Positions 54 through 56,569 of a stretch of 64,000 bases of DNA are shown here, one piece after another. How positions within the stretch are numbered: position 1 is the first letter of the stretch; the number at the start of each line of letters is the position of its first letter. A model generated the notes under the pieces. That model ran no database searches. It saw only the letters and a program-made list of their open reading frames with translations, and was not told the origin of the DNA. The stretch is from contig VXRJ01000035.1 of assembly GCA_009838525.1 (NCBI GenBank), forward strand, positions 279,914 through 343,913, given 5' to 3'. The stretch is from Acidobacteriota bacterium. Lineage in GTDB: Bacteria; Acidobacteriota; Vicinamibacteria; Vicinamibacterales; UBA8438. Both the position numbers and the translations under genes were made by a program.

Positions 54-1100
54 CAGCAGACCCGGCTGGGGGGCGCGCCCGCCCCGCGTTGGGGGGCGGC
101 CTCCGTCGTTTTCGCGCTCTTCGTCCTCGCCGGCGCCATCGGCCCCGCCGAGGCGCAGGTCAACCCGCGCGACGTGCCGATCGTCACGCAGCCGCAGCAG
201 CGGTTCGACGGCGGTCAGGACATCCAGCCCATTTTCGAGGGTTGGACCCGCAACGATGACGGCAGCTACCTGTTTCACTTCGGCTACCTGAATCGCAACT
301 ATCGCGAGCAGCCAGCCATTCCGATTGGGCCGGAGAACCACTTCTCGCCCGGCGCCGAGGATCGCGGGCAGCCGACGTACTTCTACCCGCGGACGCAGCG
401 GTACCAGTTCACCGTGCCCATGCCGGCCGACACCGGACCGGACCCCGAGGACGGCATCGTCTGGAACGTCACCGCCAACGGCAGTGAGCAGCAGGCGTAC
501 GGCTGGCTCCAGCCCGAGTGGGAGATCGACGAGAACACGATTACGTCGAACAATCGGACCGGCTTCGGCCGTCCGGTCGAGCAGTTGTTCGAGAACGCGG
601 CCCCCGAGGTGAGCGTGTCGGCGAGTGCAGCCGCCGTGGGCGTGGGTGAGGCTGTGACGCTAACCGCCGTCCTGAGCGACGACGAATTGCCGGAGCAGAT
701 GCCGCCCCGCCGTCCCCGGACGCGCCTGCCCGCGCTGATACCGCCCGACGATCTGCCGAAGGCGCCCGACAACATTCGCTGGTATCGGAAGCCGAGCCCG
801 CCCCGTAACGGTCTGGCGTTGCTCTGGGTTGTCTACCGTGGTCCGGCGGACGCGGACTTCGAGCCTTCGGGCTACCAGCGGGCGTACGCGGAAGAGGAGG
901 GCGACACCGAGGTGGACGGGCTGGTGACCGAGGCTACGTCTTCCGGCACGCCCGCAACGCACATCGATGGCGACGGCTGGACATCAGCGACGTTCGAGGC
1001 GACCGTGACATTCGACGAGCCGGGCGAGTACACGCTCCGCGGCTGGGCGTCGGACGCCATGTTCCTCACGCCCGGCGACGTGACCATCACGGTCCGATAA
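54..1100 (+). CDS. Secreted protein with C-terminal Ig-like domain; start unresolved
   Basis: The open frame runs back to a TAG at 51-53. A typical signal peptide is encoded at about 99-158, with a hydrophobic VVFALFVLAGAIG core and an AEA|Q cleavage site, so the true start must lie upstream of the GTG at 174. However, no ATG, GTG or TTG exists in frame between 54 and the signal core; only a CTG at 66. The start may therefore be CTG, or a sequence error in the C/G-rich first 100 bases may hide it. The mature part is polar and Trp/Tyr-rich. The last roughly 150 residues (APEVSVSAS, VTLTAVLSDD, GEYTLRGWASD) look like a bacterial Ig/PKD-type beta sandwich. Function unknown; probably periplasmic or outer surface. 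Confidence 0.6.
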   Translation, partial: QQTRLGGAPAPRWGAASVVFALFVLAGAIGPAEAQVNPRDVPIVTQPQQRFDGGQDIQPIFEGWTRNDDGSYLFHFGYLNRNYREQPAIPIGPENHFSPGAEDRGQPTYFYPRTQRYQFTVPMPADTGPDPEDGIVWNVTANGSEQQAYGWLQPEWEIDENTITSNNRTGFGRPVEQLFENAAPEVSVSASAAAVGVGEAVTLTAVLSDDELPEQMPPRRPRTRLPALIPPDDLPKAPDNIRWYRKPSPPRNGLALLWVVYRGPADADFEPSGYQRAYAEEEGDTEVDGLVTEATSSGTPATHIDGDGWTSATFEATVTFDEPGEYTLRGWASDAMFLTPGDVTITVR

Positions 1101-49547: not shown

Positions 49548-51239
49548 TTAGCGTGCCCCCTCGCAGGCGAAGGTCCAGCCGTGTTCGCAAGCGCGCGCAT
49601 GGAGTTCGGGCTCGGGCATCTCCATCAGGTTGGCGCCGCCCTCGCGCAGGAGCAAGCGGAGATCGAGCGTCTTGGGTGGCCCGCGGTAGCGGCCGTCGCC
49701 CGCCAGCAGGTTGAGGCAAGCTGGCTGGAAGCGCAACTCGCACGCTCGGCCGAAGTAGCCGAGCGCCAGTTCCGCATTCGCCTCGACGAGGGCGCCCTCG
49801 CGATAGTGCCGTCCCAACTCGTTGCATGCCCAGGCGGAAGCGTCCGCGCAATAGGACGCCTGGATCTGCACCAGGCGTTCGCACCCCTGTGGGCGCTCCT
49901 CGGCGCACGCCTGCTCCCAGAACGGAAGGGTATCGCCCCGGTGCCGGCTGTCCGTCGCGCCGAGCGCGGCCATCGTGAAGAAGAAGGCGATCCAGACCGC
50001 CATCTGGGTCAGGTTCGCACGGGGCCGGGCGAGCCATACGGCTGCCGACTCCAGCGGCGCGCTCGACCCGATCCGTGTGACGAGGGCGTCGATCCGCCGA
50101 ACGCCCAGGTTCAGCAGCGGGACGCCGAGCAGCTTGTCGTAGAACGTGGGGACGCCGAACGCACCGAGCAGGGCATACAGCCCGAAGACGCAGCCGCCGT
50201 AGAGGACGCCGAAGATCGTCTTGCCGATCGGCGTGCGGGGCGAGGTCGACGGATCCGTGACGAGCAGGTGGAGGCCCAGAAACACCGCGGTCGGGATCTC
50301 CGAGTCGATGAAGTAGGGCACCCCGGTCGTCGCCGACCAGAGCGCGCTCAGTCCGAACAGCACGATCGCCGCCGACGCCGCCACCAGTGTGATCGAGAAC
50401 GCGTACATCACCACCAGTCCGGCGAGGAAGAGGAACAGGTAGATGTTCGGCGCGAGCGTGAGTGTCGTTGCGATTTCCTCGCCCCAGGTGATCGAGGTCG
50501 CGTCGGTTGCGATCAACGCGATCGAAAACAGGCCGAGGGAAAACGCCGAAGGATTGAAGATGTGGACGCGGCGGCCCTCACGTTCCCACCGGACGAACGC
50601 CTTGCCGAGGAATCCCACCGCGATCATCAGGAACTGCAGGGCAAACCAGTCGTCGCGGAACCAGAGAAACAGGTTCGTCGAAAAGATGATGGGGAAGGGC
50701 CCGAAACCAAGGGCGTATCGCTCGCCGCGGGACCAGGCGAGCAGCATGTCGAACACGTAAGCGAACAGCAGTTGTCCGAACAGCAGCCATGCGTGGTCGT
50801 AGACCGGCCCCCAGTAGTAGCCCCAGTACAGGAGGACCGAGAGTTGCACCGCGGCCTGCACGTAGTGCTGCGGCCGGAGCGACGTCACGACTCCGGGGGC
50901 ACCCCCTCCGGCGGCGGCGCCGCGCTTGCCGCCGCCCGGCTCGCTCGAGGCGGCGCGCTCACTCGAGTCGGCCTGCGGGATTGCAGTGGCAGCCCGGCGG
51001 CGCAGGCGCAGGGCAAGGGCTCCCTGCCAGACGAGCAGCAACCCTGCCGCCCCGGCGAATGACGCCGTAAGCAGTTCATCTTCCCGGATCCGGGGCACGA
51101 AGCACAGCGCGGCGAGCGCCAGTGTCAGGAGGAGCGGGAGGCCGAAGCCACCCTGGCCTGGAGTGGCGGGCCGGTCCGAAGCGGCGATCTGGTGAGGGGA
51201 CGGTTGGGCCTGGCGTTTGCGGCGGCTCACCCGGGACAT
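49548..51239 (-). CDS. NqrB/RnfD-like membrane protein fused to Cys-rich Sel1-like tail
   Basis: 563 residues. An N-terminal helix pair is followed by about eight membrane helices. HIFNPSAFSLG and LLVTDPSTSPRTPIGKTIFG match the flavin-site region of NqrB/RnfD subunits. From about residue 450 the chain becomes soluble, with regularly spaced Cys (ACAEERPQGCERL, YCADASAWACNELGRHY, RACELRFQPACLNLL, RACEHGWTFACEGAR) that resemble Sel1-like repeats. No other rnf or nqr gene is near. Likely coupled with the SUMF1-fold gene directly after it. Possible orphan electron-transfer membrane module. Confidence 0.8.
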   Translation of the reverse strand: MSRVSRRKRQAQPSPHQIAASDRPATPGQGGFGLPLLLTLALAALCFVPRIREDELLTASFAGAAGLLLVWQGALALRLRRRAATAIPQADSSERAASSEPGGGKRGAAAGGGAPGVVTSLRPQHYVQAAVQLSVLLYWGYYWGPVYDHAWLLFGQLLFAYVFDMLLAWSRGERYALGFGPFPIIFSTNLFLWFRDDWFALQFLMIAVGFLGKAFVRWEREGRRVHIFNPSAFSLGLFSIALIATDATSITWGEEIATTLTLAPNIYLFLFLAGLVVMYAFSITLVAASAAIVLFGLSALWSATTGVPYFIDSEIPTAVFLGLHLLVTDPSTSPRTPIGKTIFGVLYGGCVFGLYALLGAFGVPTFYDKLLGVPLLNLGVRRIDALVTRIGSSAPLESAAVWLARPRANLTQMAVWIAFFFTMAALGATDSRHRGDTLPFWEQACAEERPQGCERLVQIQASYCADASAWACNELGRHYREGALVEANAELALGYFGRACELRFQPACLNLLAGDGRYRGPPKTLDLRLLLREGGANLMEMPEPELHARACEHGWTFACEGAR

Positions 51240-51263
51240 CGGTCAGGTAGGATAAACGACCGA

Positions 51264-51431
51264 ATGGACCCGAACACGACTATCACCATCCTGACCATCG
51301 CATCGATCGTGATGGTTGCCGTCGGCGCCCTTGCGTCGGTGCTCTGGTTCGTCTTCCGCCTGGACCGCGAGCAGGAGAAGGACGAGCAGCAACAGCGCGC
51401 GCAGGAACAGCGCGCACGGGAAGGTCACTGA
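51264..51431 (+). CDS. Small single-pass membrane protein
   Basis: 55 residues from ATG 51264: one membrane helix (ILTIASIVMVAVGALASVLW) and a highly charged Glu/Gln/Arg tail (REQEKDEQQQRAQEQRARE). A TAGGAT box ends 10 bases before the ATG. Divergent from the NqrB/RnfD-like gene, so it may share its control region. No family recognised. Real coding is supported by the clean helix plus charge pattern but remains tentative. Confidence 0.5.
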   Translation: MDPNTTITILTIASIVMVAVGALASVLWFVFRLDREQEKDEQQQRAQEQRAREGH

Positions 51432-51468
51432 CGTTGCGGGCCAACCGCTCTGGCTGGCGTGGGGTTGA

Positions 51469-52647
51469 CTATTGCGGGCCGGACATCCGTTCGAATTTCT
51501 GAATTCGCTGGCCGACGTTCACTTCGGTCGTATAGAGGTTGCCCCGCGAGTCGATGGCGAGGTTGTGCAGGCGGTAGAACTGGCCGGCGTACTTGCCGAG
51601 TCGTCCGAACTGCCCCTGAACCTCGAGTGTCTCGCGCTCCAGTATCCAGACGACGTTGTTCGTGCCGTCCGGCACGAAGAGCCAGCGCTGTGCCGGATCG
51701 ATGGACAGCGTTACGCCACTCGCCGAGCCGCTCCCGAGCGTTTCCGGCCGGATGAACGCCTCGCGAACGAAGGTCCCATCCTTCTGGAATACCTGGATCC
51801 GGTTGTTGGTCCTGTCCCCGACGTAGACCAGGCCATCGCTCGCCAGCGCGATGCCGTGCACGGGGCTCCGGAAGTGACGGATCGGCTCGGCGCCCGGATC
51901 GTACGCTGGAAGCTCGACGTCGTCCGGCCGCTCGCCGTACGCGCCCCAGTGCCGCCGGTAGGCGCCGGTGGCAGCGTCGAAAACGACGACGCGCCGGTTC
52001 CCGTAGCCGTCGGCGACGTACACCTCGTTGGCGTCCGGATCGACGCGGATATCCGCGGGCCGTCCCAGGTTCTCCGTGTCGTTGCTTCCACCGCTCTGGC
52101 CGTACCGCCCGATCTGGAGGACGAACTCCCCGTCCCTCGTGAACTTCAGGATGTGGGCGTCGTCGGCCGCGTTCCCGCCGATCCAGACATACCCCTCGTG
52201 GTCTATGTGGATCCCGTGCTCGCTCTCGGGCCACTCGTAGCCGTCGCCCTCGCCCCCCCAGGAGCGGAGCACCGTGCCGTCCGGCGCAAACTCGATCACC
52301 GGCGGCGCCGGCACGCAGCACATCCCTTCCTCGCCGCGCTGCCGCGCGTCCAGCGTCCGCGGCCGGTGAAGCAGCCAGACGTGGTCCTCGCCGTCGACCG
52401 CCACGCCCGCCGCTTGCCCCAGGATCCAGTTGTTGGGCAGCTCCGCCGGCCAGAACGGGTCTATCCGGAAGCGGGGCAGGCCAGTCTCCGCCACGGACGC
52501 ATCGTCCGCAGACGCACGGTCCGCGGGCGCAACGCGCGAAGACCCGTCGCCGGACACGCTGGCATCCTCGTCCGTCACCGGTCCGGCGCCTCCGCCGCAG
52601 CCGACGGCCACGATCAAGACGACCGCGCCGAAGATCCTTCTGGTCAT
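51469..52647 (-). CDS. Exported NHL beta-propeller (peptidyl-amidating-lyase-like)
   Basis: 392 residues from ATG 52647. A signal peptide ends at Cys in VAVGCGGG, so probable lipoprotein. Six-bladed NHL-type repeats: GQAAGVAVDGEDHVWLLHRP, GIHIDHEGYVWIGGN, GRPADIRVDPDANEVYVADG, PVHGIALASDGLVYVGDRTN and LHNLAIDSRGNLYTTEV. This is the layout of peptidyl-alpha-hydroxyglycine amidating lyase-like propellers. Two adjacent Cys (EGMCCVP) are in the first blades. Enzymatic activity cannot be confirmed; a binding or lactonase role is also possible. Confidence 0.83.
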   Translation of the reverse strand: MTRRIFGAVVLIVAVGCGGGAGPVTDEDASVSGDGSSRVAPADRASADDASVAETGLPRFRIDPFWPAELPNNWILGQAAGVAVDGEDHVWLLHRPRTLDARQRGEEGMCCVPAPPVIEFAPDGTVLRSWGGEGDGYEWPESEHGIHIDHEGYVWIGGNAADDAHILKFTRDGEFVLQIGRYGQSGGSNDTENLGRPADIRVDPDANEVYVADGYGNRRVVVFDAATGAYRRHWGAYGERPDDVELPAYDPGAEPIRHFRSPVHGIALASDGLVYVGDRTNNRIQVFQKDGTFVREAFIRPETLGSGSASGVTLSIDPAQRWLFVPDGTNNVVWILERETLEVQGQFGRLGKYAGQFYRLHNLAIDSRGNLYTTEVNVGQRIQKFERMSGPQ

Positions 52648-52684
52648 GAAAGGCACGATACACTAGGGGCCTGCAGGAGGCATC

Positions 52685-53497
52685 ATGACCAAGCTGCTGA
52701 CCGCCACGCTGGCCGTCGTCCTCGCCGTCGTCTTTACGCCCGTCGCCGAAGCGCAGCTCGCCATACCGAATGAGGACGGGATCACGTTCGGCCACGTCCA
52801 CCTGAACGTCTCCGACCTGGAGGCCCACAAGAAGATCTGGGTCGACTGGTTCGGCGGCACGGTCGTCCAGAAGGGGCCGCTCACCGCCATCCGGCTGCCG
52901 AACTTCCTGATCGCGCTGACGGAGCGCGAGCCGACGGGGCCGACGCAGGGCTCGGTCATGGACCACTTCGGCTTCAAGGTGCGCAACACCGCCGAGTTCC
53001 TCGATCGCTGGACCGCCGCCGGCATGGAGGCGGGAGAGATCTTCACCGGCGCCGAGGGCATGCCGAACGCCTACGTCATGGCGCCTGACGGTGTCTGGGT
53101 GGAACTGCAGGAAGACCCGTCGCTGCATGTCCCGATCGCCGGCTACCACATCCACTTCTGGACGCCGGAGCACGAAGCGCTGCTCGACTGGTACTCCGAG
53201 GTGTTCAACCTGCGCATCCGCCCGCGCGGCCGGATCGGGACGACGACCGATGTGCCCGGCATGAACATGAGCTTCGCAGGAACCGACGAGCCGACCGAAC
53301 CGACGCGCGGCCGCGCCCTCGATCGCATCGGTTTCGAAGTGGACAACCTGGAGGCGTTCTCCGAGATGCTGAAGGCGAAGGGAGTCGAGTTCGACGTCGA
53401 GTACCGTGAGGACGAGAGCGTCGGGTTGAAGAGCGCGTTCCTTACCGATCCGGCTGGCACCTACATCGAACTGACCGAAGGCTACGACGAGTACTGA
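52685..53497 (+). CDS. Secreted double VOC-domain protein
   Basis: 270 residues, GCAGGAGG upstream. Signal peptide ends PVAEAQL. Module 1: ITFGHVHLNVSDLEAHKKIW ... AYVMAPDGVWVELQED. Module 2: AGYHIHFWTPEHEALLDWYS ... SAFLTDPAGTYIELTEG. His and Glu in each half are likely metal ligands. Unlike the Tat-exported double VOC protein at 37307, it has a Sec-type signal. Convergent with the esterase gene (16-base overlap of ends). Confidence 0.85.
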   Translation: MTKLLTATLAVVLAVVFTPVAEAQLAIPNEDGITFGHVHLNVSDLEAHKKIWVDWFGGTVVQKGPLTAIRLPNFLIALTEREPTGPTQGSVMDHFGFKVRNTAEFLDRWTAAGMEAGEIFTGAEGMPNAYVMAPDGVWVELQEDPSLHVPIAGYHIHFWTPEHEALLDWYSEVFNLRIRPRGRIGTTTDVPGMNMSFAGTDEPTEPTRGRALDRIGFEVDNLEAFSEMLKAKGVEFDVEYREDESVGLKSAFLTDPAGTYIELTEGYDEY

Positions 53498-54552
53498 TGG
53501 CTGCTGCGTAACGTAGCCACCTCGGCCGTCCAGCGGTCGTCGAATCCCGTCCAGTGGCGTTCGTCGGGGTCGTCCGAGTGGCTCACCGGCAGTTCGACAA
53601 TCTCAGGGGGCGGCGACATGTGGTTCGTGATCGCGTACACGGTCGCGGCCGGCACGACGTTGTCCCGTCGGCCGACACCCACGATCGATCGGCACCCGAT
53701 CCGGTCCGCCACGTTTACCGTGTCGAAGTAGGACATCGTCTCCATCACCGCCTCCTCGTGTGATGGATGCCGCTCCAGGTAGTCGTTGATTTCCTTGCCC
53801 GAGCCTTCCTTCACGAGGTGCCGCCGTCCGAACGCCCAGCCGAAGGTCGGCACCGCCACCGCCAGAAAGTCGGCCATCTGCGACACTGCCTGCGCCGCCA
53901 GGGCAAGCGCGCCGCCGAAGCTCCGCCCATGAAAGACGACTCCCCCGCTCCCACTCCCCAGCAGTCGGGCGACCTCGGCGGCGCGGACGTAGTCGCCTAC
54001 GGCGCCGCGGAGAATGGAGCGGCGCGGGTCGGTCGCACCGGTCAGGATGTAACCCTCCGGGTGGAGGTCGCACGCCCTGCGTGACAGGCCGAAACCCCGG
54101 ACATCGAAGCAGAAGAGGTCGGCGTTGCAGGCGACCGTATGCCTTGCCTCCAGTACGGGGTTGCACTGCGAGTTGTAGCCGTGCGTGGTGATCACGACCG
54201 GCCGGGCGGTAGATGCCGGTCGGGAGACCGGCGCACCGACCGGCGCACCGGGGTGAGTTGCCCCGGCAACCGGCGCACCGGTGACTGGCGCACGGTTTGC
54301 CTCGCACGTCAGCAGAAAGCCCTGAATGTCGCAGTTGTCCAGGGAAGCGAACTTCACGGGTGTGATCCGCGCGCCCTCGGCCGAGGTTACCGCGACACCG
54401 AGCCTGGGATCGGGCGCGACGCTGGCCAGTTCCTCCCGTGTTTCCCGCCAGAACCGCCGGAAATCCCCGCGCCGCGTGATCGGCGGCCGCGTTTCGCGGG
54501 CGGCCGTCGCTGCCACCGCGAACGCCGGGATTGTAGAGTCGTAGTCAGCCAT
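53482..54552 (-). CDS. Alpha/beta-hydrolase (acetyl-xylan-esterase-like)
   Basis: 356 residues from ATG 54552. Family marks: STARPVVITTHGYNSQCNPV (oxyanion-hole His-Gly), CNADLFCFDVRGFGLSRRAC, nucleophile elbow HGRSFGGALALAAQAV with GRSFGG, GVGRRDNVVPAATVYAI for the acid residue, and a C-terminal SHSDDPDERHW with the catalytic His. No signal peptide. A Pro/Ala/Gly-rich insert (GAPVAGATHPGAPVGAPV) lies before the core. Its start codon overlaps that of the divergent acyltransferase gene. Confidence 0.83.
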   Translation of the reverse strand: MADYDSTIPAFAVAATAARETRPPITRRGDFRRFWRETREELASVAPDPRLGVAVTSAEGARITPVKFASLDNCDIQGFLLTCEANRAPVTGAPVAGATHPGAPVGAPVSRPASTARPVVITTHGYNSQCNPVLEARHTVACNADLFCFDVRGFGLSRRACDLHPEGYILTGATDPRRSILRGAVGDYVRAAEVARLLGSGSGGVVFHGRSFGGALALAAQAVSQMADFLAVAVPTFGWAFGRRHLVKEGSGKEINDYLERHPSHEEAVMETMSYFDTVNVADRIGCRSIVGVGRRDNVVPAATVYAITNHMSPPPEIVELPVSHSDDPDERHWTGFDDRWTAEVATLRSSHQYSS

Positions 54553-56569
54553 GCCGGAAGTGGCGCCGCCCGATCTGCGTGACGAGTGTACCGCGTTCCT
54601 CCGTGCCGAGTCCGGCTGGCTCGACGCGGCCAACGACGCGGAATGGAATCGTCTGGCCACCCTCGGCGAGGAGCGAACTTTCGAGCCCGGCGACGTTCTG
54701 ACGCAGCAGTTCGCGCCCGCGGCTTGGTTCTACTTTCTCGTCGATGGCGCCGTCCGCTACCAGATCCGTCTGGAGGAAGGGAACGAGGATCTCGATGTCG
54801 GCCATCGCGATACCCCTTGGACCGCCATCGGGTGGTCCGGTTTCCTCGCGCCGCGCCGCTACGTGACGACCGTGGTCGCCACCCGCGCCACGCGCACGCT
54901 CCGCTTCGAGTGCGCCGCTCTCGAACGCCTCTTCGAAGACAGCCCGCAGACGGGAATGGCCATGCTCGAAGCGATCCTCCGGCAGTGCTATGCCCGCCTG
55001 GCGGAAGCGCGTGCCCGCGTCACGGAGTACTCGCAGACCCCCACGAACTTCGCCCGGGCGCTCCAGGATGAGGGAGAAGAGGAAACCTACAACCGCGCGC
55101 CGCCTCCGGTGATGGACCTGCTTCGGCGGTCGGCGTTCTTCGAAGTGTTCGACGAAGCGTCCCTCCGCACGCTCGCGAGCACGGTCGAGAGCCGCTATTT
55201 CTGCCGTGGGGAGCGATTGGTCTCCCAGGGCGACGCAACGTCAGGTCTCTGGATCCTCGCCACCGGCCGGGTCGCACTGAACTTCCGGCCGCCCGGCAAG
55301 ACCGAACCGTTCGCGCTCCGGACGCTGACCGATCCGGGTGCGGTCGTCGCCCTCGCCGGACTCGGTGGCGTCGACCGGCAGGCGGCCACGGTCGTCGCGC
55401 TTCGCGACTGCACCGTCTACCGTGTCGACCCGGCGCAGCTCGATCCCGTGTTGCGCGGCGATCCGCAGTTCGCGTGCGTTCTCACGCGGCGCCTCCTCTG
55501 GCTCGCCTCGACGCGGCTCCGCGCCGCCCGCGCCCTCTTCATCTCGCGCCGCTTCGAAAAGGAAAAGCTGGCAGTGGGCAACCTGATCGAGCAGAGCTGC
55601 ACCCAGCTCAGCGTCCACTCGCCGCTGCACGAGCTGCCCCACCTGCTCGACAGTCAACTGACGGTGGGCGATGCATTCGCGATCCTCGAGAGAATGGTGC
55701 GGAGCGACGTCGCGCTTGAACGGAACCTGGCCCGTCTCTGCCAGGAGATGCTGCGCGACGTGAGGCACGAGCATGACTTCTTCGAGGCGCTTCGCCACGT
55801 GTATCACGCAGTCGTCAGCGCGCCCGCCACGATGCCGCCCGCCGACGTCCGCAAGCTGTGCGCCCGCGGTTTCCAGCAGGCGTTCCGCCAGATCCACTAC
55901 GTGCTGGCCGGCGAGGAGAACCTGCCCTCCGAGCCAGGGCAGGTCTTTATCTTCAACCACCTGAAGAACCACGAGCACAACACGCTGCCGAACAACTTTC
56001 AGTTGACCCTCGACTCGCACTTCGTCAGCGCGATGATCCTCGACCGGAAGTACGGCGACAGCGGCATCCGCGTCGTCCGGCACAGCCGCGGCACCGAGTA
56101 CGGCCACCAGGACTACTACAACCGTCTGGGGCACATCTCCGTGTATACGCACGAGTCGGACCGCCTCGACGAGACACCGGAGCAGCGCCAACACCGCCAG
56201 TCGGAGTTCTACGAGACGGCGGCCCGGTATCTGCGCGCCGGCGCCAACCTGATCCTGAGCCCGGAGGGGACCAGCTACTGGACCGAGGACTCGCCGGGTC
56301 CCTTCAAGCCCGGAGCCTTCCGCCTCGCGGCGAGTGTCGAGCCCGAACCGTGGATCGTTCCGATCGCCGTGGCTCACTTCGATCGGCGCATCCACTCGAC
56401 GGTGTGCTCGGCCGTGATCAAGGCGCCCTTCCGGGTGTCCGACGTCCTGTCCGACCCCCATGACCGGGAGCAGTTGCGCGCGTTCCTCATCGGCCTGCGC
56501 GAGACGTATCGACGTTACGTGGTTGAGGCGCGGCGACTGGCCGAGGCGGCGGCGAGAGCAAGGTCCTGA
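54551..56569 (+). CDS. Two cNMP-binding domains fused to a PlsC-type acyltransferase
   Basis: 672 residues. Domain 1 (about 30-140) and domain 2 (about 195-320) are Crp-like cyclic-nucleotide folds (ERTFEPGDVLTQQFAPAAWF; RGERLVSQGDATSGLWILAT). A helical linker follows, then a lysophosphatidic-acid-acyltransferase-like domain with FNHLKNHEHNTLP (about 468) and ILSPEGTSYW (about 570), matching the NHx and PEG(T) motifs. No HTH. It looks like an acyltransferase with built-in second-messenger or redox sensing. The ATG overlaps the divergent ATG as CATG. Confidence 0.83.
   Translation: MPEVAPPDLRDECTAFLRAESGWLDAANDAEWNRLATLGEERTFEPGDVLTQQFAPAAWFYFLVDGAVRYQIRLEEGNEDLDVGHRDTPWTAIGWSGFLAPRRYVTTVVATRATRTLRFECAALERLFEDSPQTGMAMLEAILRQCYARLAEARARVTEYSQTPTNFARALQDEGEEETYNRAPPPVMDLLRRSAFFEVFDEASLRTLASTVESRYFCRGERLVSQGDATSGLWILATGRVALNFRPPGKTEPFALRTLTDPGAVVALAGLGGVDRQAATVVALRDCTVYRVDPAQLDPVLRGDPQFACVLTRRLLWLASTRLRAARALFISRRFEKEKLAVGNLIEQSCTQLSVHSPLHELPHLLDSQLTVGDAFAILERMVRSDVALERNLARLCQEMLRDVRHEHDFFEALRHVYHAVVSAPATMPPADVRKLCARGFQQAFRQIHYVLAGEENLPSEPGQVFIFNHLKNHEHNTLPNNFQLTLDSHFVSAMILDRKYGDSGIRVVRHSRGTEYGHQDYYNRLGHISVYTHESDRLDETPEQRQHRQSEFYETAARYLRAGANLILSPEGTSYWTEDSPGPFKPGAFRLAASVEPEPWIVPIAVAHFDRRIHSTVCSAVIKAPFRVSDVLSDPHDREQLRAFLIGLRETYRRYVVEARRLAEAAARARS

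Follow-up and report, generated by a model that had tools for sequence, protein, structure and literature searches.

The window analysed here is a stretch of 64,000 nucleotides (C35:279914-343913) of a 4.29-Mb draft genome that is 97% complete. At 54551..56569 on the plus strand it carries a gene for a 672-residue protein in which two domains of the cyclic-nucleotide-binding type (CNBD1 and CNBD2), a helical region and a PlsC-fold acyltransferase domain form a single chain. The open reading frame, Pfam matches and relatives delimit this gene, although its start codon is uncertain because its ATG overlaps by two bases (window 54550-54553) the putative ATG of a divergent gene at 53482..54552 on the minus strand, which encodes a 356-residue AXE1-type alpha/beta-hydrolase (PF05448, E 1.5e-31); at least one true start of the pair probably lies further downstream. 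Pfam reports cNMP_binding in two stretches (whole-protein E 5e-21, best stretch residues 215-301), a profile search of the genome places the second PF00027 match over CNBD1 (C35:334587-334853), and Acyltransferase (PF01553) matches residues 454-607 with 32.7 bits against a gathering cut-off of 23. The AlphaFold model of the full protein (pLDDT 85) contains two mostly-beta domains, a helical region and an alpha/beta domain, so that matches and models together place CNBD1 at residues about 30-160 (54638..55030), CNBD2 at about 187-310 (55109..55480), the helical region at 311-445 (55481..55885) and the acyltransferase domain at 446-660 (55886..56530), all on the plus strand.

The tandem sensor and PlsC-fold fusion at 54551-56569 (+) is thereby confirmed, and with it the architecture proposed in the preliminary description, namely two sensor domains, a helical linker and an acyltransferase with no helix-turn-helix (HTH). 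The Pfam scan of the protein reports no HTH family, which rules out an HTH regulator; in place of the C-terminal helix-turn-helix of Crp/Fnr-type proteins the chain ends in the PlsC fold. Pfam likewise gives no match to patatin, the catalytic domain of NTE/PNPLA6, and PF01553 instead, while all NCBIfam matches fall below threshold and none names the protein. We found no description of a CNBD-PlsC fusion in the open PMC literature. The fusion stays within known folds; what is uncommon about it is a catalytic acid that has probably moved and an esterase partner that is always present but varies in fold.

Full-length homologues at 31-74% identity occur in two phyla. Eight of 40 sampled relatives carry one at 64-73% identity, a split copy is present in a further relative (G030), and the named relatives are Acidobacteriota MAGs of Vicinamibacteria. 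Within the order Vicinamibacterales the gene is present in 12 of 162 genomes, and a spread sample of 396 Acidobacteriota genomes yielded it in two, both of this order; outside the phylum, homologues at 31-42% identity appear in Cytophagales (Bacteroidota), where 16 of 390 sampled genomes carry a single copy. This patchy distribution suggests gene transfer or frequent loss. Seven additional weak matches in the order search (E 1e-8 to 1e-5) cover the motif III region only, and those inspected are ordinary PlsCs. In close pairs the catalytic domain has a dN/dS of about 0.06-0.11 and the CNBDs one of 0.14-0.24; every domain thus stays far under 1, and the whole chain is under purifying selection. 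The catalytic domain is its slowest-evolving and most conserved part, with a mean identity across phyla of 51% as against 26-28% for the CNBDs. The gene represents a conserved single-copy family in some Vicinamibacterales and Cytophagales; full-length relatives and dN/dS rule out a chance open reading frame, and conservation and selection on the plus-strand frame rule out the reverse-strand frames that overlap it.

Since a Foldseek search with the whole protein was dominated by CNBD matches, the helical and acyltransferase part was folded separately (pLDDT 87). The resulting model superimposes on Thermotoga maritima PlsC (5KYM) with a Z score of 19.2 and an rmsd of 3.8 over 222 of 241 residues, on plastid and human GPATs with Z about 14, and on PatA and LpxM with Z 8-10, LpxM standing at 8 against 19 for PlsC. 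A Foldseek search with this part agrees with the assignment, and the C-terminal PlsC fold, on which the preliminary description had staked its interpretation, is accordingly upheld. The alignment to 5KYM spans residues 398-668 (94..364 of the separately folded part), and because it begins at residue 398, the N-terminal helices of PlsC have their counterparts in the final two helices of the helical region. Against PlsCs encoded in the window genome and its order, profile comparison gave a probability of 97.6 (hhalign), with the inserted motif I loop left unplaced, and TIGR00530 (AGP_acyltrn) scored 18.6 bits, below its cut-off of 102.95. Seven other PF01553 proteins are encoded in the window genome, so the housekeeping acylation step need not depend on the protein described here.

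Motif I departs from the canonical pattern. The NH motif (residues 469-470), noted as NHx in the preliminary description, is invariant in the 40 sequences compared, with H470 as its histidine, whereas the HX4D aspartate is found in none of the 40 at the +5 position, which is E in nine and otherwise P, F, V, R, Q or S; neither HX4D nor the HX4(D/E) of LpxL and LpxM describes the family. Glu475 as an HX4E acid, as in LpxM, would fit the window sequence and was rejected since relatives read P, F, V, R, Q or S at this position. Ordinary PlsC-like proteins of the window genome and order (L043, L066, L067 and L068) read NHxSNxE (HX4E) in motif I, not HX4D. Invariant instead is D488, always 18 residues past the histidine (HX17D; 55955..56014, + strand) and preceded by a conserved 13-residue insertion; in the AlphaFold model it opens the helix (487-501) after motif I. 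D488 is most likely the displaced dyad partner of H470, standing in for the HX4D aspartate. N473, N481 and H490 are also present in 40 of 40 sequences, as are E516 and H519 of a family signature, EYGHQDYY (residues 516-523; 56096..56119, +), that forms an invariant block.

Missing as it is at the usual spacing throughout the family, the HX4D aspartate invites the view that the domain is a catalytically dead PlsC fold retained as a lipid-binding or regulatory partner of the esterase. We regard this as improbable, given that NH, D488 and PEG(T)S are kept by every sequence, or almost every one, of the 40 and that no part of the chain evolves more slowly. A PlsC relative of roseobacters, SalA, moreover has HX5D spacing, is needed for a sulfur-containing aminolipid and, in a homology model, has its Asp next to the His (PMC8319176). 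We therefore infer that the domain is an active acyltransferase.

Motif III, which the preliminary description had read as PEGT, is present as PEGTS (residues 571-575; 56261..56275, +). Its Ser575 aligns with PlsC Arg159, giving EGTS instead of EGTR, and none of the 40 sequences departs from Ser here; the SalA report describes Arg159 as the presumed ligand of the LPA phosphate in PlsC (PMC8319176). As the EGTR arginine is replaced, G3P or LPA is an unlikely acceptor, and the enzyme probably acylates something else; the acylation of phospholipid precursors suggested in the preliminary description is not favoured. The protein thus belongs to the LPLAT-fold superfamily by PF01553 and by PlsC fold only, its HX4D spacing setting it apart from canonical members, and both the missing EGTR arginine and the sub-threshold TIGR00530 score speak against placing it in the PlsC LPA acyltransferase functional family.

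The sensor domains have likewise kept their fold and lost diagnostic residues. Both PF00027 copies have the profile matches and the fold of the cyclic-nucleotide-binding family, and the tandem resembles PKA and PKG regulatory domains, its structural neighbours found by Foldseek including the cAMP-independent regulatory subunit of trypanosome PKA. In the CNBD1 cassette (GWSGFLAPRRY, residues 94-104; 54830..54862, +), the cassette Glu of PKA RI-alpha falls on Trp95 in a gapless alignment, and its cassette Arg on Tyr104; G94, W95 and R103 do not vary among the 37 sequences compared from the two phyla, 35 of which have Y or F at position 104. In the CNBD2 cassette (residues 263-280; 55337..55390, +), alignments to PKG and Bcy1 place Leu268 at the ribose-binding Glu and Gln277 at the phosphate-binding Arg, and most Cytophagales have a GWS-like cassette there. 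The cassette Glu is absent at the aligned columns in all relatives. Domain 2 had been called canonical and domain 1 the more divergent, which holds for the overall score of domain 2 but not for its cassette; that of domain 1, though not of the cAMP type, is the better conserved of the two.

These residues bear on the proposal that a glycerolipid or phospholipid acyltransferase is switched directly by cAMP or cGMP through both CNBDs, which we consider very improbable. The resemblance of the tandem to PKA and PKG regulatory domains and the PlsC fold speak for such a switch, as do the cyclases present in family f7 of the Vicinamibacterales and in seven of the eight Cytophagales genomes tested. 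Set against this are the replacement of cassette Glu and Arg in both domains, the EGTS motif, a genome in which no second PF00027 protein was found, and class III cyclases detected in none of the ten gene-carrying genomes of f1, the window genome's own family; owing to the cyclases of f7 and Cytophagales, this last argument is limited to f1. With the cassette residues replaced, an invariant GW...R pocket in CNBD1 and class III cyclase absent from the ten f1 carriers, control by cAMP or cGMP appears unlikely, and we rejected a cyclic nucleotide as the candidate ligand. Of the preliminary interpretation, then, the fusion without an HTH stands, whereas direct cyclic-nucleotide control is not supported and phospholipid acylation is not favoured; control by a related ligand, which that description also allowed for, is still conceivable. 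The invariance of G94, W95 and R103 suggests a retained pocket or interface, not a bare scaffold, and allosteric control of the acyltransferase by its sensor domains is the natural reading of the architecture.

Gene fission and fusion have rearranged these modules. Two genera of family f7 encode CNBD1, about 150 residues long, in a gene of its own, ahead of a gene for CNBD2, the helical region and the acyltransferase; CNBD1 is thus a module that can stand alone as a polypeptide. The Reichenbachiella chain continues into a C-terminal SGNH hydrolase domain and reaches 840 residues.

The second constant feature of the locus, which the preliminary description had overlooked, is an esterase. The divergent hydrolase of the window has a GRSFGG nucleophile motif with candidate Asp and His residues later in the sequence, and it is the sole AXE1 protein above cut-off in its genome. 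The Vicinamibacterales genomes with a close AXE1 homologue (E<=1e-40), 12 of 162, are exactly those that carry the acyltransferase, a co-occurrence weakened as a statistic by the kinship of these genomes, and by coordinates the homologue adjoins it divergently on the opposite strand in all 12. The pairing extends over two families, and where a sister genome is without one of the genes, the other is missing too. In one draft locus (L022:5000-6275) the AXE1 partner occupies two frames, a split due to a sequencing error or to decay of the gene.

No AXE1 homologue was found in the acyltransferase flanks of Cytophagales, where the acyltransferase stop is instead overlapped or closely followed by an SGNH/GDSL_2 gene. 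This holds for every locus of the homologue search (fused in L038), for all 16 gene-carrying genomes of the Cytophagales sample and for Persicobacter, these locus sets overlapping partly in that some share species. The SGNH proteins conserve the catalytic blocks GSSS, GGS, GDND and DxLH. The Persicobacter pair is located on a 1.58-Mb plasmid (L077, CP012852.1:199967-209694). Since the AXE1 and SGNH partners have unrelated, non-homologous folds and occupy the same place, we argue that ester cleavage itself is part of the system. Adjacency points to a shared role and not to opposite reactions as such, as one enzyme might act after the other, or each on a molecule of its own.

We propose, at about even chances, that the locus encodes a sensor-gated acyltransferase and an esterase that form an acyl on/off module acting on a non-phosphoglycerol acceptor. 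A membrane-associated PlsC-fold enzyme, with H470 as the base and D488 as its probable acidic partner, would take a fatty acyl group from acyl-ACP or acyl-CoA and attach it to an acceptor other than a phosphoglycerol, at a hydroxyl (or amine). The two N-terminal CNBD-fold domains would gate this enzyme through the helical bundle in response to a trigger other than cAMP or cGMP, which might be a different small molecule, a lipid or a partner protein. The co-encoded esterase, of AXE1 type in Vicinamibacterales and SGNH type in Cytophagales, would cut the same acyl ester or prepare the acceptor, rendering the acylation reversible or remodelled. More tentatively, and short of an even chance, we suggest that this amounts to a regulated lipid or glycan acylation cycle undescribed before, combining a CNBD tandem with a GW...RY pocket, an HX17D transferase, a new acceptor and an opposing esterase recruited from two unrelated folds in two phyla.

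Esterase and acyltransferase might instead be consecutive steps, or a Lands-type deacylation and reacylation, toward one unusual lipid or acylated glycan, with the CNBDs serving as ligand-free scaffold or docking modules; we find this possible but doubtful. Non-homologous esterase families fit the replacement of an activity, the catalytic domain changes more slowly than the CNBDs, f7 encodes CNBD1 separately, and Lands-type remodelling is discussed for bacteria (PMC9132575). CNBDs can also be structural: for NTE, one study reportedly found the cNMP-binding domains not to be essential (PMC9319352). Ligand-free scaffolds sit poorly, however, with G94, W95 and R103 being invariant in every one of the 37 sequences across two phyla.

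With PlsC-type enzymes (5KYM, PF01553) the window protein shares the fold, the NH motif, a PEGT-like motif III, the IVP strand and the alignment over the N-terminal helices; it differs in reading HX17D for HX4D and EGTS for EGTR, and adds the EYGHQDYY block, the N-terminal CNBD tandem and the constant esterase neighbour. Mycobacterial Pat is a GNAT protein acetyltransferase and does not have the PlsC fold. It shares the fusion of a CNBD to an acyl-transfer enzyme (Rv0998, NF058543), by a weak match confined to the CNBD (score 26 against a cut-off of 460, NCBIfam). SalA shares the altered HXnD spacing and the loss of the phosphate-binding Arg159, but has one extra residue where the window protein has thirteen, and the sections of the report that describe SalA mention no CNBDs (PMC8319176). 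PNPLA6/NTE and related cNMP-patatin proteins also set several CNBD-type domains ahead of a membrane-lipid enzyme (PMC9025805), but theirs is a patatin lysophospholipase that removes acyl chains and is not homologous to the catalytic domain considered here. The regulatory subunit of trypanosomatid PKA likewise has tandem CNBDs without the phosphate-binding Arg, and the trypanosome kinase, having lost the cassette Arg, is nucleoside-activated and cAMP-independent; it differs in being a eukaryotic kinase regulator whose purine nucleoside is held by Glu residues absent in the window protein (PMC10959531).

If the proposed module is correct, bacteria would be able to switch a step of lipid or glycan acylation post-translationally, by means of a cyclic-nucleotide-sensing fold that answers to a different ligand, and the catalytic definition of the PlsC superfamily would widen beyond HX4D. 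The invariant CNBD1 pocket makes a ligand search feasible, while the fact that two non-homologous esterases are constant partners suggests a reversible acyl mark and offers two entry points, one per phylum, for a substrate search by lipidomics.

Directly upstream of the acyltransferase, Flammeovirga encodes a protein that combines WD40 repeats with a caspase domain (Peptidase_C14, Pfam; L031:2274-5861), and a second Flammeovirga locus has an open reading frame homologous to it (L033:2076-5642). In the window, the flanks to about 5 kb (49551-52662 on the minus strand and 52667-53494 on the plus strand), which include an NHL-repeat protein and a glyoxalase-family protein, keep their gene order in two other loci (L021 and L022).
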